The notes beneath the pieces were generated by a model. The model searched no databases and was not told the origin of the DNA. It worked only from the letters and a program-made list of their open reading frames with translations. Shown here one piece after another: positions 3,266-55,800 of a stretch of 64,000 bases of DNA. Source of the DNA: Cristatella mucedo. Lineage: Eukaryota > Bryozoa > Phylactolaemata > Cristatellidae. Within the stretch, counting starts at the first letter, position 1. The number at the start of each line of letters is the position of its first letter. Location of the stretch: positions 454,501-518,500 of the forward strand of contig WPIO01000177.1 in assembly GCA_009760855.2 (NCBI GenBank). Direction: 5' to 3'. Made by a program: the position numbers and the translations under genes.

Positions 3266-3476
3266 TTTAGATGTAGTATTAATTAATTATTCCGGTATTC
3301 CTTCATCCGATAATGTTTACTGCTCACCCTACTTATTTAGATGTAGTATTAATTAATTATTCCGGTATTCCTTTATCCGATAATGTTTACTGCTCACCTT
3401 ACTTACTTAGATGTAGTGTTAATTAATTATTCCGGTATTCCTTCATCCAATAATGTTTACTGCTCACCTTACTTAC
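3266..3476 (+). repeat. Tandem repeat, 70-bp unit x3
   Basis: Units begin near 3267, 3337 and 3407 with TTTAGATGTAGTATTAATTA and continue through ATTCCGGTATTCCTTCATCC to TGCTCACCTTACTTA. Only a few substitutions separate the copies, so the expansion is recent. Confidence 0.93.
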
Positions 3477-13100: not shown

Positions 13101-15225
13101 AGAAAAACTAACAAGCAAAATTTACGACTTTCCACACAGGAGCGACCACACTGAGCTAATTAGCCTACTAAATATTTGCATTTAGAAAGCAGGCAGCAGC
13201 ACAGATGTTGTCAACACACCGGGATTCAGTTGTCAATTTTCTGTGATTTAAAGGATGCAAAATACCAGAAGATCGCAAGCTCGCTAACAAACTCGGTAGT
13301 ATATTTCAAGTGCACAACCTGCACACACTCGAAGCTATCGTACATGCATCCAATTGCAGATCGCTATGTGCACATCCTTAGCAATTGATAATGCAGACCT
13401 GCTATATACTGTCATAAATACCTCTATTAGCCCTCTACATAAATAGTGATATTTAATCACGACGAGTTTGTAAACCATTTCAACACGTTTCTGGCACGGG
13501 AGTAGTAATTTTTCTTTACACAAACGTTCAAAAAGCCAGTCATGAGATAGTGCCAAGACACAACGGACATCTGCAACAGCTTCACAATTCTGTTTCACAC
13601 ATACGATGGCATTAGAGGCAGAGTAATCAACACAGCTGATAATTTACAGCAGCAAAAATTATTATTGCGCCGTGGAAAACACCACAGCACTACCAGAATG
13701 ACCATCATTCATGTGGACTACGAGACCAATAAGATTAACTTTCAAGGCACGGCTTGTATGCAAAAAAAGTAATAAATGTCTGCACTTGCTGACCGAAAGC
13801 AAGGAAATCCGACTATCAAACTGTACAAAGAAGGCGGTCTCTCCTCCACAAAGCTCGGATCTATCCTTCAGCTCAGTAATCACTCGCAGAAGAAAAAACG
13901 ACGGAGCAATCGCTAAGGAACTTGGCACAAGCAACAACAGCAAATTAAAAGTGCTCGAGGGGGTATGCCACGAGCGCTCTCGAGCTGAAAGCCAAACAAA
14001 GCAATTTACTCACGACATTCACTTTCCAACACCCATGTTTTTAAGTCAAGTATAGCAAGACTTCTCTGTTTCTTATCTTTTTTTTTTATAAAGCAAGCTC
14101 TAAATATCTTGCTTGGCCCATTAAAAGCATCGAACGTATTGCCGGGGGGGGGGGGGGGGGGGGTAGGGTGGCGCTCCAAACAACCCACTTGCAAATGGAA
14201 AGGGCTTTGGTGGAGCATAGCTGGATATTTAGGCAATCGCTGACTTTATCGCTGACTTTAATTTGACAGAAGCATGCAACGTGCACTCAAGACAGATCTG
14301 ACTTCTTAAAAAGGTTTCAGCACGATCCACCTTTGCCCCCTAAACAAGCCCAGGCAATGCATTTAGCCTCCACGCTGTGGTGCTCGCAGCACTTTGAGGA
14401 CCTGCAGGGAGCTCACCTGTCTGCTGGCGGTCGGTAAGGTTCTTGCACAAACATGGGTGCCGGAGGCCGGTACGGATCGTGATGCATCATCTAATCAAAA
14501 AAGCAGCTTCACTCACTTTACGATTTTCGACCACAGCGCAGCAGCTGCTCGACAGCCGGCACGTGCGCAGCACACTGCACCTGAGCAACGCCGGGCGGAG
14601 GCTGTGCGCCCGGGAAGAACGCCGGATTGACGTGAGGCGCTGGCGGCACGCCGTGAGGTGGTGCCGACATCAAGTGGCCGGGCGGCGGAGGCATGCCAGG
14701 CGGAGGGCCGGGCATGCCGGGCGGAGGGCCCACAGGATAGCCCGGCGTCGGCACTGGCATGTACACTGAAACGATCAAAGACCACGACTCACTCTGCTGC
14801 TCCGCAGCTTCGGTGGCCAGCAACAAGCAGGCAGCCATCCAGGGGTGTGTGGCAGCAACGCAGCTGCCGCACTCACCAGGGGGCCTCTCCCACTCGGGCC
14901 TCGGCGGCATCATGCCTCGCGGCATGCCCTGCGGCAGCATGGGTCCTCTGGGCTGCTGCAAGAGAACCTGCGATATTAGGCATTAGATTGGACGCCGTCG
15001 CCCAGACAGCGGTGCTGCGCAGCGAGCGACAATCCCCGGAAGTACGATGCTCACCATGCCCGGCGGAGGCTGCCTCTGGTGGTGCATGGGCGGACCGAGG
15101 TGGCCCGGCGGACCTGCAGCAGAGGACAGACCGAGCAATCGGTCACAAGCCAAGCCAAGGCGCTCGGCGATGCCATGCGTCCCGTCCGATCAGCAAGTGC
15201 CCACAGATGAGCAGTATTGCACTGT

Positions 15226-15291
<66 letters not shown>

Positions 15292-17832
15292 ATGCGATGC
15301 CAACAAAACTGGGGTGTGAGAGCCACAGCAGAATTCTAAAAAGCGGTGACTACCTTGCTGCCCTGCGATCAGACCTCCGCCACCGCCGGGGCCCATTGGC
15401 CGCTGTCCGCCGCGATGCATGAACCCCCCACTTCGATTGCCCCTGTTCTGTTGCTGCTGCTGCTGAGGCGGAGCCCCGCCTCCGCCGCCACCACCGCCGC
15501 CTCCACCTCCTCTGCCGCCCGAAGACGTCTTTGCTGCAACGAGATGCCAGACTGGAGCCATGTAGCGATCGACCCGGGATGCTCGAAGTGGCACAAGGTC
15601 GACAACGCGACAGCGGCTTACGCGGCTGGGAGGAGCCGTCCTTGCGCGCCTGGGCTTCGAACTGGCTCAGGGCCTGCCTGTTGCAGTGAGTCACCACGAG
15701 CTGCTGGCCGTGCAGTTCTTTTTTCACAAGCTTCTCCAGGAGAGTTCGAGACGATGCATCCGAACCCAGGGTGACCGTGGCAAACCTTCGGCCGAACGAG
15801 AAACAGCAAACAAGATATTTAATGCAGACCCACACCCCAAGAACGCAAAGCGATGAAGTATGGCTCTTGCATCGGCTTGCTCGGATAAGGAGCAGCGCCT
15901 TCCTAATGGGCGGGCGGAGTGCGGATCCATTACGATGCAAGTGCTCACATATGCTCACGAGCACTCAGTCGCACGAGAGAGAATTCGCACGCACGTGCTT
16001 TCGAGCATTGGCACTGGTGGTCAAGCAGAAAGCGTCGAATTCCGAGCACCAATAGCTTACCCTTTGGACTGGCCATTTGTCCTGTTCTCATAGAACTTGA
16101 TGTCGAGCACATCAGTTACACCCAAGCTACTGATGGCATCCGTTAGATCTTGGTCAGTAGTCCACTAGAAACGATATCAAAACAACAGTTCAGGCATTCC
16201 CTGATCAGAGCCAGAGCATGACAGACAATGCAAGATAAATCAGTGAAGTGGCACACCCTACGTACCCACGTGAGGTTTCCAACATATAACGCTATCCGCT
16301 TACCACCCGTTATTGAAGCATGCGTGCCGGCTGTATTCGTTTTGTCGTCTTCAACCTACGAACCGATAGTTCTGGATGTTTAAATGGCAGTATATGCAAG
16401 TAACCTGTATGTAACAGGCAAGGCACTGACTCCACCCCCCCCAAAAAAACTACTTTGTCACTGCAACATCTGCTGCTAGCCAGGCTATTTGCAACAGCAA
16501 ATCATGCAATGCTACATATAGCCATCAGGAAGCAACAGACCCTGGTCAGGAAGCAATGGACCCTGGTTAAAGCACATACCTCATTTGTGTCAGTCTGGCT
16601 GCTGCCAGAGGGTGCCGTAATAACATCGTCGTACAGATCGACACCCGAGCCATTGTTAAACTCTGTTTCCTGCAAGCAGGAAAGCCGAGTCAGTGCAATT
16701 TAAAGACAAGTCAAAAGACCGTTTGCGACTCAATCGCATGCCACAGCATTAGCTGGCTTATTTGCCGCCGATACAACATGCATGCAGCAAGTGTGACTTG
16801 AAATATTGACCCCTCCCCAGAGATACCATACCAAGTGCACGTTTCTTTAAGGCCTCACATTTTCCATACACAAAAAGGCACGAGTTTAGCGGTGCCATTT
16901 TTGTTGCTGTTTGCTTGCTTGCATGCTCACTAAGCGTAGCAATTTACTAACAATACTCACTGCACTTCTTCACACGAGCATTGTTACCTATTCGGTGATA
17001 CTTTCATCAATTTTTACTCTGGGAATACATAGCACAGCGCCGAACTGGTGCAGATACCCGTGCCCTGCTCGAGCTCTCAAGGAGGGGGAGGCTTAAATAA
17101 GCTCATCCCTTGAATTAAAGGCAGCCGAGGCTTAATTTCGACACACACGACTAGTAAGGTGCACCGGCAGGTCTGCAAAACACCGACGACGAACGACAGT
17201 GCGCATATACAGAGAAATTAAAGGTATGCACGTGATTTTATGATAGCTGAAATAAATCGGGACTGCTGAAACTTTGCAGCTTAGCAAATGCTACGTGCCA
17301 GTCAACAACAGCGGGATGTTTGAATTTACCCGCAACAGCAGCACCGGTGCACGTCCGCGCACGGGTTTCCCCAACGGACTAAAGTGGAAAAGAGGCGCAC
17401 AAATTAAGCTGCCCACCGAGCTTCAGCTCTTTATGAACTAACAGCCAAGTGGACTGACAATACAAACAGTGAACCGGCAGGTACGACGACAGTCTTCGGA
17501 TGTAGCAAGTGAAACATAAATATACTTATTAGGCTATGCAAAAATACATGCAAAAAATTAAAACCATAAATACTGCAATGAATACGCAATGATTACCACT
17601 CCGGGTTATATAGACGACGCTGTCGACGACCGAACAAAAAATCACGCGGGGATGCCGCACTCGAGCGGAACAAGGAGGCGGCAGCGTAACGACGAGTTAC
17701 TAGCGAGCGGGCACAATTACGCTGACGATGATCACACAACAGCAAGTTCCGTTGAAGCGCCACTACAAGCACTACCTGATTAAAGTCCTCGTCGATGTTT
17801 TCGGCGTACAGATCTATGTCAACCTCCGCCAT
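9941..17832 (-). CDS. CPSF6: CPSF6/CPSF7-like cleavage factor Im 68-kDa subunit, 13 coding exons, complete
   Basis: Nuclear pre-mRNA 3'-processing factor. The family pairs with NUDT21 (CFIm25), binds UGUA elements and influences poly(A)-site choice. I joined 13 exons (listed separately), all with GT-AG introns and compatible phases, giving 504 residues plus a TAG stop. Human CPSF6 is about 550 residues and CPSF7 about 470. Order: acidic N-terminus with two IDLY/VDLYDDV-like motifs (1-50), RRM about 68-150 with RNP2 ALYVGN and RNP1 NGQSKGFATV, Gly run and Gln run (about 175-205), Pro/Gly/Met-rich centre containing [10 protein letters not shown], a conserved block with [15 protein letters not shown] (about 380-397), a helical segment [14 protein letters not shown] (about 405-420), and an Arg/Ser/Asp/Glu RS-like tail (448-504). 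The start was chosen at the Met giving MAEVDIDLY, which matches the family N-terminus. Orthology to CPSF6 rather than CPSF7 is a judgement; it may be the single pre-duplication gene. UTRs not determined. Confidence 0.95.
10224..10371 (-). CDS. CPSF6: CPSF6-like exon 12
   Basis: Residues 398-446: [19 protein letters not shown] then [18 protein letters not shown] and [10 protein letters not shown], matching the conserved alpha-helical segment of CPSF6/7. Acceptor CCTAG, donor GTGAGC, ends in phase 2. Confidence 0.95.
10503..11395 (-). mobile_element. LINE-A 3' fragment in CPSF6-like intron 12
   Basis: Minus strand: [20 protein letters not shown] near 11330, [20 protein letters not shown] near 11200, [19 protein letters not shown] near 10840, then the terminal GCGC..GAGTTCTCTGAGGGTG at 10510-10560. 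Inserted in the same orientation as the host gene. Confidence 0.88.
11731..11897 (-). mobile_element. SINE-1 copy
   Basis: tRNA-derived SINE: head with GTGGGTTCGATTCCTGCAGT-like B box and the GACCTCGGTCCCGAGGTCGT hairpin, body GCAAGCGGTGGTGATAGCCG, end CAGCTAGGAATT. In the antisense orientation to the next copy at 12098, in the same intron. Confidence 0.87.
12098..12372 (+). mobile_element. SINE-1 long variant
   Basis: Starts TGAGCCGTGATGGCATACTA; B box GTGGGTTCGAATCATG; then a 3' extension after CAGCTAG (TTAGGCCACAG, GGACCACGGTATTTATTAAT) shared only with the copy at 24265. Lies antisense in CPSF6-like intron 12. Confidence 0.83.
12923..13032 (-). CDS. CPSF6: CPSF6-like exon 11 (conserved C-terminal block)
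   Basis: Residues about 361-397: [15 protein letters not shown] then [14 protein letters not shown], equivalent to [23 protein letters not shown] in CPSF6. Acceptor TTGTAG, donor GTAGGC. Separated from exon 12 by a 2.5-kb intron that holds a LINE-A fragment and two SINE-1 copies. Confidence 0.94.
14143..14163 (+). repeat. Poly-G tract
   Basis: Uninterrupted run of about 20 G (C in the CPSF6-like transcript), in intron 10. Length is likely uncertain in the assembly. Confidence 0.9.
14417..14490 (-). CDS. CPSF6: CPSF6-like exon 10
   Basis: Residues 337-360: [24 protein letters not shown]. Two YRPP units recall the Pro/Tyr-rich DPYGRPPPYD stretch of CPSF6. Acceptor ATTAG, donor GTGAGC, ends in phase 2. 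Less conserved, so the limits rest on frame continuity. Confidence 0.82.
14581..14765 (-). CDS. CPSF6: CPSF6-like exon 9 (Pro-rich, [10 protein letters not shown])
   Basis: Residues about 275-336. Contains repeated PPPGMP units and [17 protein letters not shown], the most diagnostic block of the Pro-rich domain, shared by CPSF6 and CPSF7. Acceptor TTTCAG, donor GTGCAG, ends in phase 0. Confidence 0.94.
14877..14955 (-). CDS. CPSF6: CPSF6-like exon 8
   Basis: Residues 249-274: [20 protein letters not shown] then EWERPP. Pro/Met/Gly-rich, as in the disordered centre of CPSF6. Acceptor TTGCAG, donor GTGAGT, ends in phase 1. Confidence 0.87.
15055..15113 (-). CDS. CPSF6: CPSF6-like exon 7
   Basis: Residues 229-248, [19 protein letters not shown], start of the Pro-rich domain. 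Acceptor CTGCAG, donor GTGAGC. The upstream intron (240 nt) contains a 62-bp CT/GA repeat. Confidence 0.87.
15228..15289 (+). repeat. (GA)31 microsatellite
   Basis: Perfect GA repeat, read as (CU)31 in the CPSF6-like pre-mRNA, 115-176 nt upstream of the exon 7 acceptor. Confidence 0.97.
15354..15533 (-). CDS. CPSF6: CPSF6-like exon 6 (Gly and Gln runs)
   Basis: Residues about 169-228. Low complexity: a run of 12 glycines, APP, six glutamines, then [15 protein letters not shown] and a GPGGGGG block. RGG-like and Gly-rich segments are expected in the RRM-to-Pro-rich linker of this family. Acceptor TTGCAG, donor GTAGTC. Confidence 0.88.
15622..15785 (-). CDS. CPSF6: CPSF6-like exon 5 (RRM C-terminal half)
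   Basis: Residues about 114-168: [14 protein letters not shown], then [17 protein letters not shown] and [13 protein letters not shown], matching the end of the RRM and the following helix in CPSF6/7. Donor GTAAGC; ends in phase 1. Confidence 0.95.
16061..16164 (-). CDS. CPSF6: CPSF6-like exon 4 (RRM core)
   Basis: Residues 80-113, starting [16 protein letters not shown] and ending at NGQSK of RNP1. Together with exon 3 this restores the WWTT-type signature as TW-WTTD. Acceptor TTCTAG, donor GTAAGC, ends in phase 2. Confidence 0.93.
16266..16355 (-). CDS. CPSF6: CPSF6-like exon 3 (RRM RNP2)
   Basis: Residues 50-79, exactly 30 codons, phase 0 on both sides. Ends [13 protein letters not shown]: first beta strand and RNP2 of the RRM. 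Acceptor CGTAG, donor GTACGT. Too short and too interrupted in the flanks to be seen as a long reading frame; found by completing the RRM. Confidence 0.9.
16580..16669 (-). CDS. CPSF6: CPSF6-like exon 2
   Basis: Residues 20-49, 90 nt, phase 0 on both sides. Contains [13 protein letters not shown], equivalent to the family DQIDLYDDV motif, then Ser/Gln/Thr-rich linker. Acceptor TTGCAG, donor GTATGT. Confidence 0.93.
17776..17832 (-). CDS. CPSF6: CPSF6-like exon 1 (start)
   Basis: Residues 1-19, [19 protein letters not shown], matching the acidic IDIYAD..EEFNQ start of the family. Donor GTAGTG, phase 0. The intron to exon 2 is about 1.1 kb and is spliced to an acceptor ending TTGCAG. Confidence 0.93.
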
Positions 17833-18540
17833 TTTCGGCCCAGTCGACAAACGGCGGCGGTTACCGGAAGAGGTTCCCACGTGACGGCAGTCCCGGCGAC
17901 GCGCGTGGCTGCGCACATGGCGTTTTAAGGTTAGTAATCTTGTTCGGCTCGCCGAGGCCACGCTTTTTGGAGGCTGCACCGGTGAGTCGAATTGACTTGC
18001 CGGTGCAGCCAGTGCTGGTCAATCGGTGTGTGACCTGGTTTAAGCCACGGTGTAACTTCGGTCCCTCTAGTTCGGTGCCCGTCGTGCTTGCCAGCAGTGT
18101 ACCTGGTTCGCGTCGTGCTTGGCATACTTCAGAGAAACTCATTAGTTCGTGCCGCAATGCTTTCCGGGCTGATCGGTAGCATGCTATTAGTAAGTAGATA
18201 ACGTCTAGTTGCTGCAATCCGTCCATGTAACGGTTCCTGGGCTAAAATTTAGCCGCCTCTTTGCTCCGAGCTGGTGGGGTATCCTTGGTTCTTTAGGGTG
18301 TAGCTGCTGTTTGGGTAGTTATGATTAACGGCGTCAGGGCGGGGGTGGTCAAGTGCTTATGAATGAAGCTTATGAATGAAAAGCGTGAGCGACTACTATT
18401 CTGTGCAGCTTGATGGTACCGTCGTCCAGTTAATATCGACTGCTGAACCGGCCTCTCGACTGAAATTGAGAACCCTGCTGGCTTGTCATTGCCACAACTT
18501 CTGAATATCATACCATTTGTATTTTACTTGAGATGTGATG
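17833..18540. promoter_or_regulatory. Upstream flank of the CPSF6-like gene
   Basis: The first 100 bp above the start codon is GC-rich and lacks a TATA-like motif, fitting a 5' UTR/promoter. No conserved element recognised. Placement as promoter is inferred from position only. Confidence 0.35.
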
Positions 18541-30200: not shown

Positions 30201-33200
30201 CGAACCCACGACCTCGGGACCGAGGTCGTGAAAGCAACCACATTACCTTGTGTGCCGTCACGGCTCACCAAAGTAGTCGAAGCTGGTCCAGGAGCAGCTT
30301 TGCAAATTTGACCCGTGCCTGTGGGCACTTCTTCAAGCGACCCCGAAATTTCTTCTGATACGCGAATTTAATCCTAAGTTGCCCATAGCTGTCACCTGTC
30401 CGTAAAAAGAGTCGCTTGGTTTAGCCGTGTGAACATGCTTTGGACAGTGTTAATTTGCACGGTCGTCTGTAATTAATTGAAAAATAGGCTGCAAATTGGA
30501 TGCAATTCGAGTAGTAGACGAGATTGTTTACATGGAGATCGCCGGCCTGCAAGCACCTTCTCGAATGGAACCGGAAAAGAATTGTTGAGGTTATTTGAGC
30601 CGGAAATGATTTTTAGCGGTTTCTTTGGCATCTCTTTTGCTGCCCTCACTTTGTTGTCATGACGCTGGCAGCAGCTTAGCTTGACGTACCTTCGACGCTG
30701 AGCCGCACTCTCGACCGACTCTCGTTTTGTCTTGTGTTGTTGCTGCCGATCAGTTGTGCGACTGTTGCAGATTGTTGGTGGTATTTGCATTAACATTTTT
30801 TGATCGGTCGCATCACGTGGCTGCTCCTGTAGTGCATTATAGGGCCTGGGCTGCATACATATTCTGAGGCAGCTGTGCAGTCGAAGCAGCCTTGCAGTCT
30901 AGCCATGCTTTTGTCCTGGTCGCCTCACTTTCTCTCTTCGTCGTCCTTCGAGCTGTCATACGAGCTAATGCAATACGGTGCTGCACTGGGTCCTCTTGTC
31001 ATTGATCAGCAATAGTCTATCCCAGATCCCAGTCGTCTCCGTCGGAGCACTGGTATGGGCTTGCTTTTGGTCGGATTGGTGGCATAGGTCTGTGATATTC
31101 CCTTTGCAGCAAATGTAAAGCGCCTAGAAATAGATTAAGTTCTCTGAGGGCGCTTTATGAAGTGCATTATTGTTATTGTTATTATTAAATAGGTCGATGC
31201 TTTGGTCTGGCCTCCATGCTGCCTCCGCTGCGGCCGGTGCACTGGCTGTTACATTTATTTGTGGCGCATATTCTGCTTATTTCCAGAGAAGCCGAGGGTG
31301 AAGAAGCCGAGATTGTTGATGACGAGCTGGCCGACTACGAGGAAAAAGATGCCGAGCCGAGGTGGGTGACACGAGAGCACTGCTCGATGGGGACTTTAAT
31401 AACGTGCCACTTCCACGGGACAAAGTTATCATGTGGGTAACGACCGGCTCAGCGTCCGATAATATGGACTTTAGATAAGAAGGTTAAATAACTTTCTTCC
31501 AAGTCTGCAGACCCCGGTACTTCAAAACCCTTCGGTGTCAGATGGTGTCTTCATGCTAAAAACGTTCCATGATGTATCTGTGAAGGCAGTAGTGCCCTCA
31601 TGGGAGCCTAGTATTCAGTTCCAATCGGATAGCACGTCCTTGACCCATGTCGTTCGTCGAGGGAGGCGGTTGCTGTTTCAGTGCCTGTGCAAGTACCTGT
31701 TTCCGAGTGCTATACTATACTATACACTTTAGTGCAGTACATTTAGCATTTACATTTAGTCATGGTGCCTATATGCAAGCATGCTAGTGTGCATGCGTCT
31801 GCACGTGTTTCGTGTATCAGTGGCGTACTAAATGCAGTGGCATAAAGCCACTTCATAGTTACATTGCTGTCAGCTGTGCTGTACCTCATGCTCTACTTGA
31901 AGTGAGGAAGGAAAGGTTGGTTTTGAGTCAGGGATTCTTAGGCGCCTGGCACCCTGATAGCCCAAGAGGTAAGGTGCTCTTCACGACAAAGGTCGTGGGT
32001 TCGAATCCTGGTGTTGGGCGATCCTTTATTGCCAACTGCAAGCGGTGGCGATAGCCGATACGGCTCTTTTGCCGCTATAGAAATGAGGCTGTTAAATCAG
32101 CTAAGATTTTTAAGGGCCCTGATAGACCAGGAGGCAAGGTGCTCCCTCTTCACGACCCAGGTCATGGATTCGAATCCTGCTGCGGATGATCCTTTATTAG
32201 CAAACTGCAAGCGGTGGTGATAGCCTTCAAGGCTCTTCTGCTGCTATACAACAGATGCTGTTAAATCAGCTAATTTAATTTCTTTATATTATTTTCGATC
32301 GGTACAGATTACTGGAAGTAGGGCTTCCCAAACAATAGTAATATTTATAATAGTAGTTGTAATACAACATTTGTATAGCGCCCTAGAACTAAGCCTCGGT
32401 CTTGTCCATTTCACATATCACATGTTGAAAGGGAAGCCGGTCAAGTGGTCGCTGATAATATGCCCAGTTTCAGCATGCAAAAGCACACGCAAACGGTTTA
32501 TTCCCGGTTGAGCAAATGCTGGGAAGAACATATGGGTTTTAAGCCTCTTTCTAAATGTCAAGTCAGGGGATGTGATGACCTAAGACGGGAGTGAGTTCCC
32601 GGCTTAGGGAGCATACGAACTAAAGGCACGGTCTCCAAAGGATTTGATGTTGGTTCGATGCACTGCAAAACTACTTGAGCCGGAAGAGCAGGTCACATGA
32701 TGAGAAGCCTGATGAGGAAGTATATCCGATGGGTAGGCTGGAGCAGGAGAAGTAAATATCCTACACGTGAGTGAAAGGCCCTTTGGTTGATACTCTGCTG
32801 AGCGGTAGCCAGTGCACATCGATGCTGAATGGTAGCCAGTGCACATCGATGAGAAGTGATGTAGCAGTTTTAACGTTCGTGAGAGAGAAGCCTACCTGCA
32901 GAATTTTGCCCCGACTGAGCGTTATATCGAGTAAGTAGAAGATACTGGGAGCACTGAGTTACATTAATCTAGAGTGATGTCACAGATGCATGAATCAGGT
33001 GGATTGTAATACCCTGAACTAAGCAGTCTAGCATTTTTGCATTGGTTCGTACCTGAAAGTGTGCAGGCTAGTGAAAGGTCACTTTAAAACAGGACAACCA
33101 GATTGCATTCACACTCTACAGGAGATAAATTCTGGTCGAGTCCATTTTGAGGGTTTGGCTTTCCAATTTCTCGTTGACACCGGGTTTCCCCACAACTAGC

Positions 33201-46851: not shown

Positions 46852-49800
46852 CGCGCAAACAATGTCCACTGATATATGTGCATCCTGGTACAATGGCAGT
46901 TTGATATGCAACTGTTGGGCTAAAGGTTGTCTGAACTATCGGAATACAATAACTTGGTACAATGTTTAATAATATGTATGGAGCTCTTGTAAATGTAGTC
47001 CTAGCCCAAATACGTGATGCTGAGATTGATAACATAGGCAGATCCTGTTCTGGTGAGTTTATAGTGGTCACGAGTTGACTAACCTCAGAAAAATAATCGA
47101 TCACTTCTTAATTCTAATAGGCGTGGATTTTTCTAGCCAGCACCATGTATGATGCTGACGTAAGAACCAGACCCAGCAATAAACATGCTGACCTCTGACC
47201 TCGATGTCCTCGTGTGCAGTCGGCTTGCGTCCGTCCGTATCGCCAGCTTAGGAACTGTTTCGTGCTGCTTCGACCCTGCGGAAATGATGCCCGGTTACAC
47301 TGGCGCCGCACTCTTGACGTTTTTTGCATGCAGACGTGGCAGACCAGTTCCGGCCACGAGCAGGCCGCGCCCGACGATCAGCTGATGTGCGAGAGTGAGG
47401 TGATTATCCGGCAGGGAGAGCTGCTGTGCGGTGTGCTCGACAAGAACCACTACGGCGCGACGCCTTACAGCCTCGTGCACTGCTGCTATGAGCTGTACGG
47501 CGGTGAGACCTCGACCCGCGTGCTCACCTGCTTCGCCAAGCTCTTCACTGCGTTCCTGCAGTACCGCGGCTTCAGCCTGGGCATCGAGGACATCCTCGTC
47601 ACCAAGGAGGTACGGCCGCCCGGTTCGAGCTCGCTTCGCTTGCCGCGTAAGCCCTCTCGCGAGAGCGCTTTTCGCTGCACCCAGCGCGGCCCCTTAGTGC
47701 CACGTGACCATGCCCAGCTTGAGTGCAAAGCAGCTGGCCGACGGCTGTGCGCAGGCGCATCGAGGTTTCGCCGAGGTTTCGGTTTGGGCTGCCATCGTTT
47801 CTTCAGTGAGCTCTGTGGAGCCTTTGCGCCTAGCCCGTGCGTCCGAGGCAAGATGGCAAGCGATCGAGTGCTTTCGCTTTGTGGTGTGTGTCACTCGCTC
47901 GATTCGCTGCGGTCGTCTACAGCCCATCTGGTCACCGTTTTTTGCTATAGGCTTTTGAGCTCGCTGCAGGCTCCGGCAGCGTATTCACTCGATGCCTGAG
48001 ATAAAACTGTGCATGTCGTGCCTGCCGCCGGCATAGAGCTTTGACCTGCCATCTCGATTGCGGGTTGTGCTCGCTTTGAGCCCTACAAAAGGAAACGCAC
48101 GGCCCAGTGGCTGAGTCGTCACACCCGCTTCACTGCAGGCCGACCGGAAAAGACATCACGTGATGAGGCAGGGCCGCAAGGCCGGCTTTGCGGCCCTGGC
48201 CGCTGCTCTCGGCAGAGCGACCAGCAGCGACAGCTCTGCCGGAGCCTCTGCTGAGGACGTGGCGGCTCACTATCGTGCTGCCCAGTTCGCTTCCGATGAT
48301 GCCGAGATGCGCGCGATCGATCGAGCCCTGAAGGGCGCCACGGACGAGATCCAAAATCAGATCACAAAGTATGGTCGATAAGAGACGTTTTGTGCTGGCG
48401 CGTTTTTTTTTGCGCCGCCACACTGTGCCATTGCTGGCAGCTGGTGCCTAATGCTCGGCCTTGCCTCCACTACTAGTCCCTTCCTCTCTGTAGCCTCTAG
48501 CCACCGTCCACTGCACTGCCGTGATCAGTTGTTCCGCTACGTCCTGCTGGCTGACCTAGCCGCACTTGCTTTCATGGCTGCTGTCGGTGGATGCAGGTGA
48601 AGTAGTTTTTGCATTTCCTTTAGAGTCTGTATGCCACTGGGCTTGCTGAAGAAGTTCCCTCATAACAACCTTCAGCTCATGGTCCTCTCGGGTGCCAAAG
48701 GTTCTGCTGTAAGTTTTCTGTGTGTGCAGCTGCATTCGTAGCAGCCTAGCTATTCGCCTGCCGGTTTCTCTTGTGGGCGCATGCGCCGCGCCGCCGCCCG
48801 CGCCCCCCCCGTAGGCTCGTTCGTCATTACCCGCTGGCTTTGGTGAATGACCTTAGGCCACATTCTCCTCTGGGCATTAGTTTTGCTTACAATTACCCGA
48901 TACAGTGATGAGGATACCGATTGGTCTATTTACTCTCTGGTGTATTGTAAAAGCTTTGTATGCCTGCCAATTCTTTGCTCGATGGCTATGACATTGTCAT
49001 TTCGTTCAACGTGCTGCATCTGCTGGCTGCTGTCGGTTGGGGTGAGGGATTATAGGCCTAGTGACCAGGGGTGCGGCATCCTTTGATTTAAGCGTTGGCA
49101 TACACAGTGCAGTTGCAAGTGGTAAGCCTAGCTCGACCAGGTGTTTGTAGCTTGCGTCATCTGGTGGCTAGCCTCCATTCGCAAGAATTACTTTCTGCAC
49201 CAAAAGTCGAGTTAGTTCGAACGTTTGACGAATGCGGCGGCCCAGTTATTATAGTCACTCTCGAATTGCCGCTGACTGTAAAGAGAGTGCCCGCGGTGGA
49301 GCAGGCACCGCAGTTGCTCTTCCGGGCGTCTTGAGAGTCGTTTGTTGCCGTTTGTAGGTCAACTGCATGCAGATCTCTTGCCTGCTCGGTCAGATGGAGC
49401 TCGAGGGTCGCAGGCCGCCTTTGATGCTCAGCGGGCGCACTCTGCCATCGTTCTTGCCCTACGATCCTTCCCCGCGTGCTGGCGGATTTATTGATGCCAG
49501 GTTTCTGACGGGATTAAAGCCCCAGGAGTACTTCTTCCACTGCATGGCTGGAAGGGAGGTGCGTGGAGCCACGGCGCAGCCATGCAGCAGTTTCTCTGGC
49601 ACGGGCAGCGAGCCGGTTTCACGCCTGTGCAGCTTTGCTAGCAGCGTTGCTGCCGTGCTGCTGCTGCTGCCCTAAAGCTGTGCTCTCGCGGTCATAGTTT
49701 CCCTCGCCCGATTTGTTCTGCTAAAGGCACACACTGGCAGCCACAAGTGTTGTCGCACATCACAGTTGGCGATTTGCAACACTTTAGTGCAGTGGTTCTC

Positions 49801-52800
49801 AATCTTCCTAATGCCTCGACCATTTAATATCAGTTCCTCAAGTTGTGGCGACCCCCAACCATAAGATTATTTTCGTAGCTACTCTACTTCATGCCCGTCA
49901 TACGATGCATGTTTTCCAATGGTCTTAGGCGACCTGTGTGAAAGGGTCGTTCGACCCTCAAAGGGGTCTCGACCCACAGGTTGAGAACCGCTGCTTGAGT
50001 ACAAGAATGAAGGTATATGCGCTGTTGCAATTGACAACGTAGGATTACTTTTCAATTTAAAACCAAAACACACAAGCACAATAAGGCCTCCGTCCGAGAG
50101 AAACATGATGAAATTTTGGGTCTTTTGACCTAAAAAATAATTACGTAAAGGCGTGGTACAGTCACAATTAAGGATCGGGCGATGTTCGGGATCGGTGATT
50201 CGAGGTTGATATCTAGTCATCGTTGCTAGCCGGGTTTAGAGACTCATGTCGATCAATGGCAATTACAATCTGTGCTCTTAGTGTCACTTCCGCGGTGCAT
50301 ACTCGAGAACAGGGCCCTGTTTAGGGAGTTTAGCTTTAAACATCACAATATTGACGTCTTTCTTCTATTTCTTTAGTAAACAAACTCAAGAGTTGTTCGT
50401 TATTTGCTATTCCAAGTTCCTATACATCTTCATGATATATTCGAGATTATGCTTTGAGCATAGAAATAAAATCTGCCTGGCCAGTTTTGCCTGTGACAAG
50501 ATGGTTAAACTTGTAGCCATAGTTAAATGCGATGGCTGATCTCTGGAAGCTTTCACAATATGCAATGAGCAATAGCACGGGCTTTTTTTAACGTAAGCCT
50601 TTCTAACCGAGACGCTACATAGACTCACAATGCTGTACCTTTTAAATCTTGTGGTGCATCCTTGGCTGGAGATTTCACAAATTTACTCGGAGAGGGGAGT
50701 ACAAAACAAGAACAGTGATCGACATCTGCCTCTAAACACAGCCAGCTTAGATGACGATACATTTCTTGTTTTCGGCACACTTGTGTGCCTGCATAAGACT
50801 CTCACTGATCCAGAATATCCCCTGCTTGCTCTGCGCTATCGGATTCCCTGGGCCTAACACCGGTGTAGGGCTTAAGGAGCCATAGTTTTCCGGCTTTTCC
50901 TGCATGGAGGACACACACATTGCCTGCTCACTTTGATTTAAAGCTAGAGAAGTACTATTCCAGGCTTCATTTGGGGCTTGTGCCTTTAAATTTTGCAACA
51001 ATCCGTCACTTGGTGCTAATCTGTGGTGTGGCACCACTTACGACCAGACTTGTGTAGTGTTATAAATGCAGCGGCCTCTGCACGAAGTCCTCGGACCACG
51101 TGTGTACACGGCACTGAGTACACGGCGATGATAGCCGTGCTGGTCTCTACCGACATATGACAAATACTGGCAAAGTTAGCCTCTCGAAGTGCGGCTAGCG
51201 ACTGGCATATGCTGCCTTGATACATGAAGGTAAGCCGACTATGATAGAGCACGGCAGCTTTAAAGAGAGGACCTTGATATATAACAAGTCTGTGTCCTTG
51301 GTGAACAACAGCCTGTCACAGTCACAGAGGGTTGCAGCTGTCCAGCACCGGCCTTAGCATGTAACTCACTTGAAAGCCCAAAGAACAGCTGACTGACTAA
51401 TACCCGATTTTAGCTTTTTATGCCGCCTAACTGTAGATTATGGCTTAGCTACTTCCAAATCATTTTAATTTAGGAGCCGCAAATAACATCTAGGTCGTCA
51501 CAATCGGGCCGGGTTCAGGTCATCAGCACTTCACTTGGCTGGAAGCACGCGAGTACTTTTAGCTTCAGCTCTTTTTCAATCAATACCTGAACCGACCTCA
51601 AAACTAAAGCACGATTAAGTGTACACGACACAGGAAGGGGGCCATCATTCATGTACTGTTGCACAATTGATTGCGCCTTATCATCATGTTCATCCCTGGC
51701 ATCGTTTTGCCAATCCAGTCTTGTCTGCCTTATATTCAGTTAGATAGTCTGTGGGCAGGTGTGCTGGACAGCATCCAACAAATCTCTTAGCTGAGCATAC
51801 ACCCACTGGCAGACTGTTGAATGCTGTGAACAATTAATTAAGTCACTGTGAATCAAAGTTCAATCTATTTGCTTTTAAGATAGGTCGATTCAGCCGCCAT
51901 AGCATGGTTGTAACTCCCGCGGCTGGTTGAAATGCAAAGGAATGCTGACCACGGCATTTGCCGATTTGAAATCACAATGTGGCATCGTCATTTGACATAT
52001 AGAATTCTCACCATAGTAGAACAGACACCGTCAACTCTCTTACTGAGTAGTGTAACAGCCTGTCCAACATCAGAGCAACAGTCCGTAACCTCGAAAGTTT
52101 GCACAGTAGCAGTCTTGAAGCAAGTTACAGCAGTCACAGTCACTACAGTGTATTACCAGGCACAGGAAGAACGATCACCCTTTTTTATCGCATCATCAGT
52201 CTGTAGTACCAGAAACCTGCAATTTACAGCAGCAGCCGGTCTCGTGCTTAGCTATAAAATCATAGACTTGGACATCCTAAGCCATAAATAAGATTAACTA
52301 ATTTCAACACGTTGAGCTTCAACCTTGGCCTGTACACGTGATCACCTTTGACATATTCTAGATTAACAGTGGTAAGCCACGCCTGCTGCCGTCATTTGCA
52401 TAATTAAGTTCCAGCTTAGTAGCAGTCTCAGCCTAACTCTCGGCAGACTGGGTGGCCTTGACATTTTAATTTAGATGTCACCAACTTTTGCTTCATGCAG
52501 AAAGTCGTATATACACACTAAGCTGGTGTATAAGCTTATCGGTTTCCCGAGTGCAATTTTTTTTAGATGTGTTTCATCAGAACCTGAGTTCTGTTAATAC
52601 TGTCCTGAGGACTGACCATAGCTAACTTTCATCTTACACGTGCAATCCCCATGTCCGTGATTGTTGAGAGTGAGTGTGTGAATATCTATGCTAATGCTTC
52701 TCGTGCAGTTTTTGCTGTATTAGCCAATTGTGAAGCCCATGGAGGTCTGAGTTGCTCCAATGGTGGTGCCCAGCAAGCTAGTCCTGCGAGCTAGTATTCC

Positions 52801-55800
52801 TGTTGCAGCGCTTGCCTACAGATTCCTTCGGTTGTTTCGTTGCTCCCCTTGCTGCCTTTTGGTTCATAACTTACACGATTGCCGTTTTTTTTAGTGCCAT
52901 GCCCTTGTTTTTGGCCACTCTCCCTCGTTTTGAAATTGCTGAATCCCAGTTTTTTTAAGGGCTTGGTCGACACGGCCGTGAAAACGAGCCGCAGTGGCTA
53001 CCTGCAGCGCTGCATCATCAAGCATCTGGAAGGCGTCATGGTCTCCTACGACTTGACCGTCAGGGACAGTGACTCCAGCATCATTCAGGTTGAGACAAAA
53101 ATCTGCATTCTTGTCGTTGACATGCTGCCGATGTGTGTGCGTGTGTATGTGCATCCGTGTAAACAGTAGTATGCGTACCTTGCTTGCATCATCTGATAGC
53201 TTTAGCCTCGATCGGTATGAATTCCATTCCTGCTAGAGTATCACCGGAGCAACTTCGGGTGGCTGTAAACTCGACGAAGCACTTGCCGCTGGCCTATGTT
53301 CCGGTTGCCTGGTCTTGGCATTTTGTCATCCTCGGGTGTAATCCAGTATGCCCACATAGCCCATAGAACCATTGAATGTGTGTGCGCAGGGGTGTTTGTT
53401 TAGGTACGTGCAGGAGTGCTGGCAATGTGCCTGCATGGACTTATGCCTCTATTTTGTCTCTTAGTTCCAGTACGGTGAAGATGGCTTAGAAATTGGCAAG
53501 ACACAGTTTCTCAAGGAGAAGCAGTTTCCTTTCTTGATCGAGAATCAGACCGTTGTGTTACGTGATGACGAACTAGATCAAGTGAAGAATGCAATGGATC
53601 TGAAGAAAGCAGCAAAGCACATCAAAAAGGTGGGTGTGCATGCCTGCAGTCTCGGCTGGGGCAACGACGGTGTGGTGGTTGGGGTGCCAATGGCCATCTG
53701 CAGCAACAGACGGCAGCCGTGCGAGCTCGCTGCCCAAGCCGCCGGCTTGTTGACGGCTTCCGAGACGATGCCGCGGTGCCTTCATTCTAGGTGAGCCGCT
53801 CGAAAAGGAAGGGGCGACCATGCGGCAGCAGGCAGGCGTTTCCATTTTTAATCTACAACAACAGCGAGTGGCCGCAGACACTGGCAGCAGTGCAGCCTAT
53901 CGCCGACGGCCACCGGGCTGCCGATGCACAGAAGGTTATCTCGGCCTACAGGAGCCTGGGCGATGACGAGATCAGCAGGTGCGCACTCACTCCCAACCCC
54001 CCCCCTTTCTCTGGCCCTTGCTACTCGGCTGCTCCGTCAATTCGGTTCAGCCAAGCGCCTGAGCCAGCATTTGTCCGGCCGCACGATCACGCCGTTTGCC
54101 TTGCTGGAGGGGAAGAAGAGACTGCGCTCTTCGTCACCTTGCAAAAATGAGCGCCGATCGACGCCCGTGTATCTCTATTTGTGCCGCGAGCGAGCTCTTC
54201 CGGCACGTCCGGCGCTTCGTCCGATCGTAGCAGCGCGAGTTGCTCTTTTTTCGCCTAGATTGAGCGAGCTATGCCAGCCGGCGGCGCCAGTCATGGCGGC
54301 GTTGAATCCTCTCCGCTACTTCGGCTCCATACCCGAGAAGCTGTCCGACATAGTTGCGAGCTACACCCAGCGCAATCCGCAGAACGTAAGCGTGTGCGCG
54401 CTCGCAGCACCTCCGGCAAGGGGACGGGTGACCTTGAGCTCGGCTCCTGCTCTCTGTGTGCGTGGTGCTCGTGTGTGCTGCTCGTGTGTGCGTGGCGCTC
54501 GGGCGGGCAGTCGCCAGTCGTCCTGCGCACGAGAGCTCCTTCGTGCCAGCGCTTCACCTTCTCTTGCCGCTCGTCGTAGCTGATTGTCACCGAAGACGGT
54601 GAAGCCGCCGTCAGCCGTATCTCAGCGCAGCGGTTTCGTTCTCTGATGAACCTTCGCTGCCTGCGCTCCCTGGTCGAGCCAGGAGAGGCCGTCGGACTGC
54701 TGGCCGCGCAGGTACAGCAGCTGCAGCAGACGACGCTCGGTCGAGAGAGGGGCCGAGGAACGAGAGCGCACTTGCAGAGTGCCGCGTGAGCGCTGGCTGC
54801 GTTCGAGCCTGCCCGCCCTGTCATCGACGTCGTGCCCCTGCTCTGCGCTCTGCTCTGTGTGAGTGTCTGTGGTTTGAGGACGACACGCCTTTGCCTCGTT
54901 GACAGTCCATCGGTGAGCCGTCAACGCAGATGACGCTCAACACGTTCCACTTTGCCGGTCGAGGCGACATGAACGTGACGCTGGGCATCCCTCGACTGCG
55001 AGAGGTGCTCATGGTGGCCAGCGGTAATATCAGGACGCCGACCATGGAGATTCCACTGCGCAATCCTTCGAGCAAGCGCGCCCGTCGTCGCGCTGAAGCC
55101 CTACAGCGGCGTCTCTGTCGCGTCACCCTCAGAGAGGTGAGGCTGAACCCCCCTCCTCCTCCCCCCCCCCCCCCCCCCCCCCCCCCCCCGCCGATGCATC
55201 TGCTGCTGCAATCGAGGCAGAACCAGTGCTTTCGGGTGGTATGCATGGTTGGGCTATTCTAGCCGGTCTGTCTGTCTGCTGCTGCTCAACCCCGATGACA
55301 CGTTTGCGTAATTGAAGGTCATTGTGTTTTTTGTTTCTCGGTTGCAGCGATACGGCAAGTCCCGCATCATGCTCGTGGGTTACTGGCCGCTAGATGGGCT
55401 TTCCCATTCCACAGCTGACGCTGTGTCCCCAGTGCTACACTTGATCCTTTGATCGACCAGAAGTCATCGAAGCTCATTTAGAAAAGGAGACAGATGGCTG
55501 GGCCTTTGATATTTCAAACTAGCCTTTCAGCCATATGAATCACCAGCTGCATTTACCTAATAGCTTTTTCGGTAGCTCTACCAAAATAGATGAGCATGTT
55601 CTCGTTCAAAACGGCAAGAGCGGTTCCATGCGCCAAGTGACGCCGGCGGAGCGTGCTGAACGCTTGTGCTTTCACTTGTATACCTACTCTGTATATGGCT
55701 TGTCCTGTTCTCGGAGCTGCCCTGATTTAGGTTTCGGTATCCTTGACCCAATTGTACATGGTTGCATCTTTTCTAAGACGTTTGTGGCCGGAGGTATGAA

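Follow-up and report, generated by a model that had tools for sequence, protein, structure and literature searches.

Insertion in the POLR1A intron

The window analyzed here, a 64-kb stretch of contig WPIO01000177.1 (positions 454,501 to 518,500), carries exons of POLR1A, and one intron of this gene holds a 204-bp insertion (49790 to 49993, minus strand) that is very probably a SPIN (SPACE INVADERS)-type miniature inverted-repeat transposable element (MITE), a shortened and now dead hAT transposon of the SPIN family. Its paired ends, its matches to other family members, and the alignment of copies indicate that the element is whole and nonautonomous. The gene was identified by our reading of the frames and by matches that its other exons gave in Pfam and PDB: Pfam RNA_pol_Rpb1 domains were found in four of the 10 window frames scanned (three of them above the Pfam cutoff), the region beside the intron at 49358 to 49492 corresponds to Pfam RNA_pol_Rpb1_4, and a late exon matches POLR1A (RPA1) chains best in PDB. 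The plus-strand intron (GTGCGT...TAAG, 49559 to 52959) is ~3.4 kb long and lies between exon ends at 49558 and 52960; its limits were set by the GT...AG borders and the exon frames, and the upstream bordering exon, as we read the frames, ends in ...FFHCMAGRE. The insertion begins 231 bp behind a POLR1A exon. A first-pass annotation had placed the element in a POLR1A intron, and the splice borders and exon matches bear this out.

The same annotation had described hAT-type ends, an internal block, and a plausible, decayed 8-bp target-site duplication, and the coordinates, the length, and all of these features were recovered. The termini are inverted repeats without mismatches, CAGTGGTTCTCAA at 49790 to 49802 (plus strand) and CAGCGGTTCTCAA at 49981 to 49993 (minus strand), and the inverted arms extend over 17 nt with an 88% match. 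The flanking duplications, CTTTAGTG on the left (49782 to 49789) and CTTGAGTA on the right (49994 to 50001), are identical at six of eight positions. Read on the minus strand, the element begins CAGCGGTTCTCAACCTGTGGG, which we take to be the usual SPIN orientation. Six subterminal CGACC/GGTCG motifs are present, one of them a plus-strand CGACC at 49817 to 49821, with further CGACC motifs starting at 49849, 49930, 49952, and 49970 and a GGTCG motif at 49945. The center (49859 to 49915; minus strand ...GCATGAAGTAGAGTAGCTACGAAAATAATCTTATGG) is that of a subfamily, termed class B below, and is shared in part with a ~320-bp form of the family and not with the 187-bp form that makes up its bulk. When two or fewer mismatches are allowed, the end motif occurs at seven sites in the window, compared with 6.1 expected; with no mismatches, it occurs solely at the two ends of the element.

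Copies and size classes in the genome

A search of the 572.0-Mb assembly (688 contigs) with the 204-bp sequence gave 2,045 first-look candidates, and the 40 that were scored comprised the window copy itself and 39 other matches of nearly full length (75 to 86% identity, E value of ≤1e−32). A pattern of two intact ends 150 to 180 positions apart, with 24 fixed end letters, was found at 213 places in the genome, compared with none for the reversed control; the pattern is palindromic and is therefore seen on both strands. Given a mean distance of 0.086, about one-ninth of the copies would retain all 24 end letters, which suggests ~2,000 full-length copies in the genome. Absence of other copies, which the first-pass annotation had named as an outcome that would overturn its claim, did not occur.

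For further analysis, 63 copies were aligned, of which 47 were chosen for their intact ends (L009 to L055) and 16 because they resemble the copy in the window (L001 to L008 and L056 to L063). They are spread over 37 contigs, one of which is 24.8 Mb long. Flanks are identical within two pairs, L005/L006 (on C653, 54 kb apart) and L014/L033 (on C11 and C44), and the set therefore represents at most 61 independent insertions; these pairs look as if the element had been copied within a larger duplicated region or had inserted into a different repeat. The consensus of the bulk form is 187 bp, and the mean p-distance of the copies from it is 0.086 (Kimura two-parameter [K2P] distance, 0.093), an estimate that is probably biased low because copies were chosen by intact ends or likeness.

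Target-site duplications identical at six or more of eight positions flank 52 of the 63 copies (22 of them exactly), while the adjacent outward 8 bases agree to this extent in one of 63. Both the 8-bp duplication and the short terminal inverted repeat starting with CAG are those of hAT elements. The duplicated site is of the type nnCTAGnn, with T at a frequency of 0.89 and A at 0.93 at positions 4 and 5 (n = 52 copies with a duplication), and this central TA agrees with the target site of the hAT Buster group, nnnTAnnn. The family consensus contains seven CGACC/GGTCG motifs, compared with 0.41 in dinucleotide shuffles, none of which reached seven in 2,000 trials. The hAT transposases of other systems bind subterminal repeats of this kind, and the motifs in the present family may likewise be transposase binding sites.

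The copies fall into size classes of ~187, ~200, and ~320 bp, which have both ends in common and differ in their interiors. Class A, the bulk form of 187 bp, has the center ACGCATTTCCACATTTTGCACAC. Class B has instead a center with GCATGAAGTAGCAACGAAAATAATTTTATGG and is represented by six of the 63 copies (L001, which is the window copy, and L002, L003, L004, L007, and L061), a share that was raised by the picking of L001 to L008. A search with the center of the window copy returned nine places, three of them class B and six matching on one side only. Two of the one-sided matches, L117 and L121, together with L120 and L122, reveal the third, long class, which has the same ends and a longer interior and measures ~320 bp in two copies with both ends. 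L122 lacks clear ends, and the sequence of L117 enters a block of N from about position 1556.

The long class is itself numerous. Its interior gave 94 candidates in the genome, and the 40 scored comprised the query and 39 matches at 77 to 85% identity. Class B and the long class also have the 26-mer AAGTAGCAACGAAAATAATTTTATGG in common; it was found at 76 places when three or fewer mismatches were allowed (seven exact; control, 0), and 29 of these 76 lie within the 40 listed long-class matches. The four long copies are 83 to 87% alike in pairwise comparison, indicating a similar age for the long class and class A. Classes A and B may be internal-deletion forms of the long class, a route that we infer from the alignment. 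The family is short, noncoding, and present in many copies with size-reduced derivatives, as is characteristic of MITEs.

These data also bear on the window copy. Its place 231 bp behind an exon might suggest co-option as a regulatory element within the intron, but such use is extremely improbable, given that it has diverged further than most of the aligned copies (K2P distance from the bulk consensus of 0.135, compared with the mean of 0.093, part of the excess being subfamily difference) and that the genome contains many copies like it. The insertion is most likely neutral, and no function is expected of it.

Relationship to SPIN elements and nature of the host

Among the closest known elements are the SPIN_NA elements (SPACE INVADERS) of tetrapods, reportedly described by Pace et al. 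in 2008, and the URR1-like repeats of rodents. We take the tetrapod SPIN_NA/URR1 repeat to share both its ends and the interior of the long class with the family described here. In a comparison with a provisional tetrapod SPIN sequence, 179 of 186 aligned positions are identical in the class A consensus and 182 of 199 in the window copy, gaps being uncounted in both cases; taken alone, this agreement may be biased by the copies already read. A 49-nt interior stretch of the provisional sequence, fixed before long copies L120, L121, and L122 were retrieved, fits each of them (0 of 500 shuffles for each). The likeness to the provisional tetrapod SPIN_NA/URR1 sequence comprises the near-identical ends and subterminal blocks, the 8-bp duplications, and, in three of four long copies, the interior. 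The differences are the host, which is most likely an invertebrate (see below), and the 187-bp bulk form, which has its own center, TTTCCACATTTTGCACAC, for which we know of no tetrapod counterpart.

Printed sequences point in the same direction. In a paper on targeting of mouse Ate1 (PMC2767504), one primer for the Ate1 locus matches positions 1 to 19 of the reverse-complement consensus at 18 of 19 letters and a second matches positions 56 to 75 at 18 of 20 (36 of 39 for both), and these primers would lie within a mouse copy of SPIN. One of three SPIN strings sought in printed text was found, in two mouse papers, and six other SPIN strings were not found in the literature text searched. The SPIN identity proposed in the first-pass annotation is thus supported by the long-form interior and the mouse primers, with the name resting partly on the provisional sequence. 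The outcome that the annotation had set against its own claim, a best match to an unrelated hAT family with no alignment across the interior, did not occur, as the inside of the long form matches the provisional SPIN sequence.

The same comparisons bear on whether the family could be a native invertebrate hAT of the Buster group that resembles SPIN at its ends only and was inherited vertically. End motifs and target sites are common to whole hAT groups, and the SPIN name leans on the provisional sequence, whose interior one of the four long copies does not fit. Nevertheless, native origin is very unlikely: the interior matches in three of the four long copies, one printed mouse primer matches at the extreme end and the other 56 to 75 nt inside, and noncoding letters should not have stayed so alike since the split between vertebrates and protostomes.

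Several observations weigh against assignment of the family to SPIN and against its arrival from elsewhere. First, the tetrapod sequence is provisional and was set down after the 187-bp consensus and L117 had been read, and the fit of L117 to its interior does not exceed chance (9 of 500 shuffles). Second, a full-length SPIN transposase between SPIN ends was not found in a far-from-complete search that covered 50 of 138 scored loci. The hAT dimerization domain (PF05699) gave 766 candidates in the genome, of which 150 were scored, yielding 138 matches (63 at 69 to 78 bits and 75 at 28 to 45 bits). Exact SPIN ends were absent within 1.5 kb on each side of all 30 strong loci inspected and from the downstream kilobase of 20 of the 75 weaker loci, and the shortest distance between these 138 matches and 87 sites carrying the 26-mer or the long interior is 14,050 bp. 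Third, exact scans of IMG/VR and of GTDB contigs returned no SPIN, as is expected of nonanimal collections, so the scans do not speak to a patchy distribution.

The 30 strong loci (L064 to L093; e.g., C62:104187 and C687:1714900) belong to one different hAT family, presumably Ac-like. Most are 99 to 99.9% identical to L069 over ~2 kb (lowest, 98.96%), and the loci contain several open frames of ~640 amino acids and one of 1947. This second family was probably active very recently in the host genome.

The host was assessed from COX1 on the mitochondrial contig (C688; 21,008 bp). The gene is open when translated by table 5 and has eight in-frame stops by the vertebrate table 2. Under table 5, AGA/AGG is read as Ser, ATA as Met, and TGA as Trp, at positions that we take to be conserved sites. 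Because COX1 requires AGA/AGG to encode serine, the host is in all likelihood an invertebrate that uses the table-5 mitochondrial code and not a vertebrate; the wording of COX1 seems to us suggestive of a lophotrochozoan. The first-pass annotation had judged the window to be nonvertebrate, and the mitochondrial code agrees with that judgment. C688 likely belongs with the nuclear genome. Five further partial matches to COX1 lie on four other contigs; those at C166:4375626-4376390, C549:2641741, C299:634220, and C83:2826-3735 are interrupted by in-frame stops and are perhaps nuclear copies of mitochondrial DNA.

Further searches gave no placement of the host. The PDB chains that match COX1 best are, we assume, mammalian. 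Profiles for annelids (PF16915) and mollusks (PF14830) gave no genome matches, an absence that is uninformative without a working control, and ARAGORN with the bacterial code found no tRNA beside COX1. C688 (L118 and L119) is rather long, with what is presumably ND3 behind COX1, a long stretch farther on that has no obvious gene, and frequent AGA/AGG serines.

A vertebrate host, e.g., a jawless one, would make transfer between phyla unnecessary. The GC content of the window (43 to 59%), its long CA/GA microsatellites, and the closeness of the last POLR1A exon to the human one are compatible with such a host, but it is very improbable, as COX1 requires Ser for AGA/AGG at conserved serines and Met for ATA and is interrupted by eight stops under table 2. 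A lamprey, which the base composition, the microsatellites, and POLR1A had brought to mind, was rejected on the mitochondrial code. Contamination of the assembly with vertebrate DNA might be suspected because SPIN is best known from tetrapods, but it deserves next to no credence: the 63 copies lie on 37 contigs, including the one of 24.8 Mb, and have sizes, target duplications, and divergence in common; the window copy sits within a POLR1A intron of the assembly; and the mitochondrial code is nonvertebrate.

History of the family and its surroundings

If the SPIN identity holds, the family arrived horizontally rather than by descent, and horizontal transfer is the best account of SPIN in this host. 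We propose that a tetrapod-type SPIN element entered the invertebrate lineage in this way and that SPIN transposase, acting in trans, would have bound the ends and the subterminal CGACC/GGTCG motifs, excised the short elements, and inserted them at nnCTAGnn sites. The shorter forms would have arisen from a longer element by internal deletion, and among them the 187-bp form would have multiplied most. Activity would then have stopped, leaving copies to drift to ~9% from the consensus.

Lymnaea is said to be a host of SPIN. Rhodnius prolixus is one in print: the first-pass annotation had mentioned a triatomine bug, and PMC11614815 ascribes SPIN_NA_12_RP and SPIN_NA_13_RP of R. prolixus to transfer from vertebrates. 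These are likewise nonautonomous SPIN elements in an invertebrate, a likeness drawn by description and not by sequence, and they differ in that the host is a blood-feeding insect. Biomphalaria glabrata, as described in PMC5440852, has ~1,000 SPIN-like hAT copies and no intact transposases in its assembly; it resembles the present host in being an invertebrate with many copies (~2,000 full-length copies estimated here) and with no autonomous SPIN found in the partial search made here, again by description and not by sequence. In mammals, SPIN transfer into several lineages is dated to 15 to 46 million years ago in PMC5857283. Invertebrate hosts beyond Rhodnius and Biomphalaria were not found in the literature searched, which lacks most subscription journals.

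As SPIN or SPIN-like elements are already in print for Rhodnius and Biomphalaria, what is new is a host record and a well-preserved series of shrunken forms rather than a new kind of element, and the record adds a data point that leaves the established SPIN story unchanged. Every further independent host helps in tracing the animals between which SPIN passed, the time of the exchange, and the intermediary involved. Copies in the size series are numerous enough for the burst to be dated and for the long form to be compared, letter by letter, with SPIN of tetrapods, Rhodnius, and snails, a comparison that would distinguish one transfer into protostomes from several. Tentatively, the host may represent a phylum previously without a SPIN record, being neither insect nor gastropod, whose genome has preserved the complete series, from a tetrapod-like form of ~320 bp down to the 187-bp form that multiplied, so that both transfer and shrinking could be dated inside an invertebrate.

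The remainder of the window contains several other features. On the minus strand, opposite POLR1A, frames at 14518 to 18018 gave no Pfam family in the two scanned, and they are, in our estimation, reminiscent of CPSF6/CPSF7. A 70-bp unit is repeated three times at 3267 to 3476 (95% alike), and a 169-bp unit is repeated about twice at 31952 to 32273 (81% alike); because other translated frames of the window look similar to the latter, it may be an interspersed repeat. A reverse-transcriptase fragment at 1552 to 1896 (RVT_1, 5.5e−13) is probably derived from a long interspersed nuclear element (LINE).

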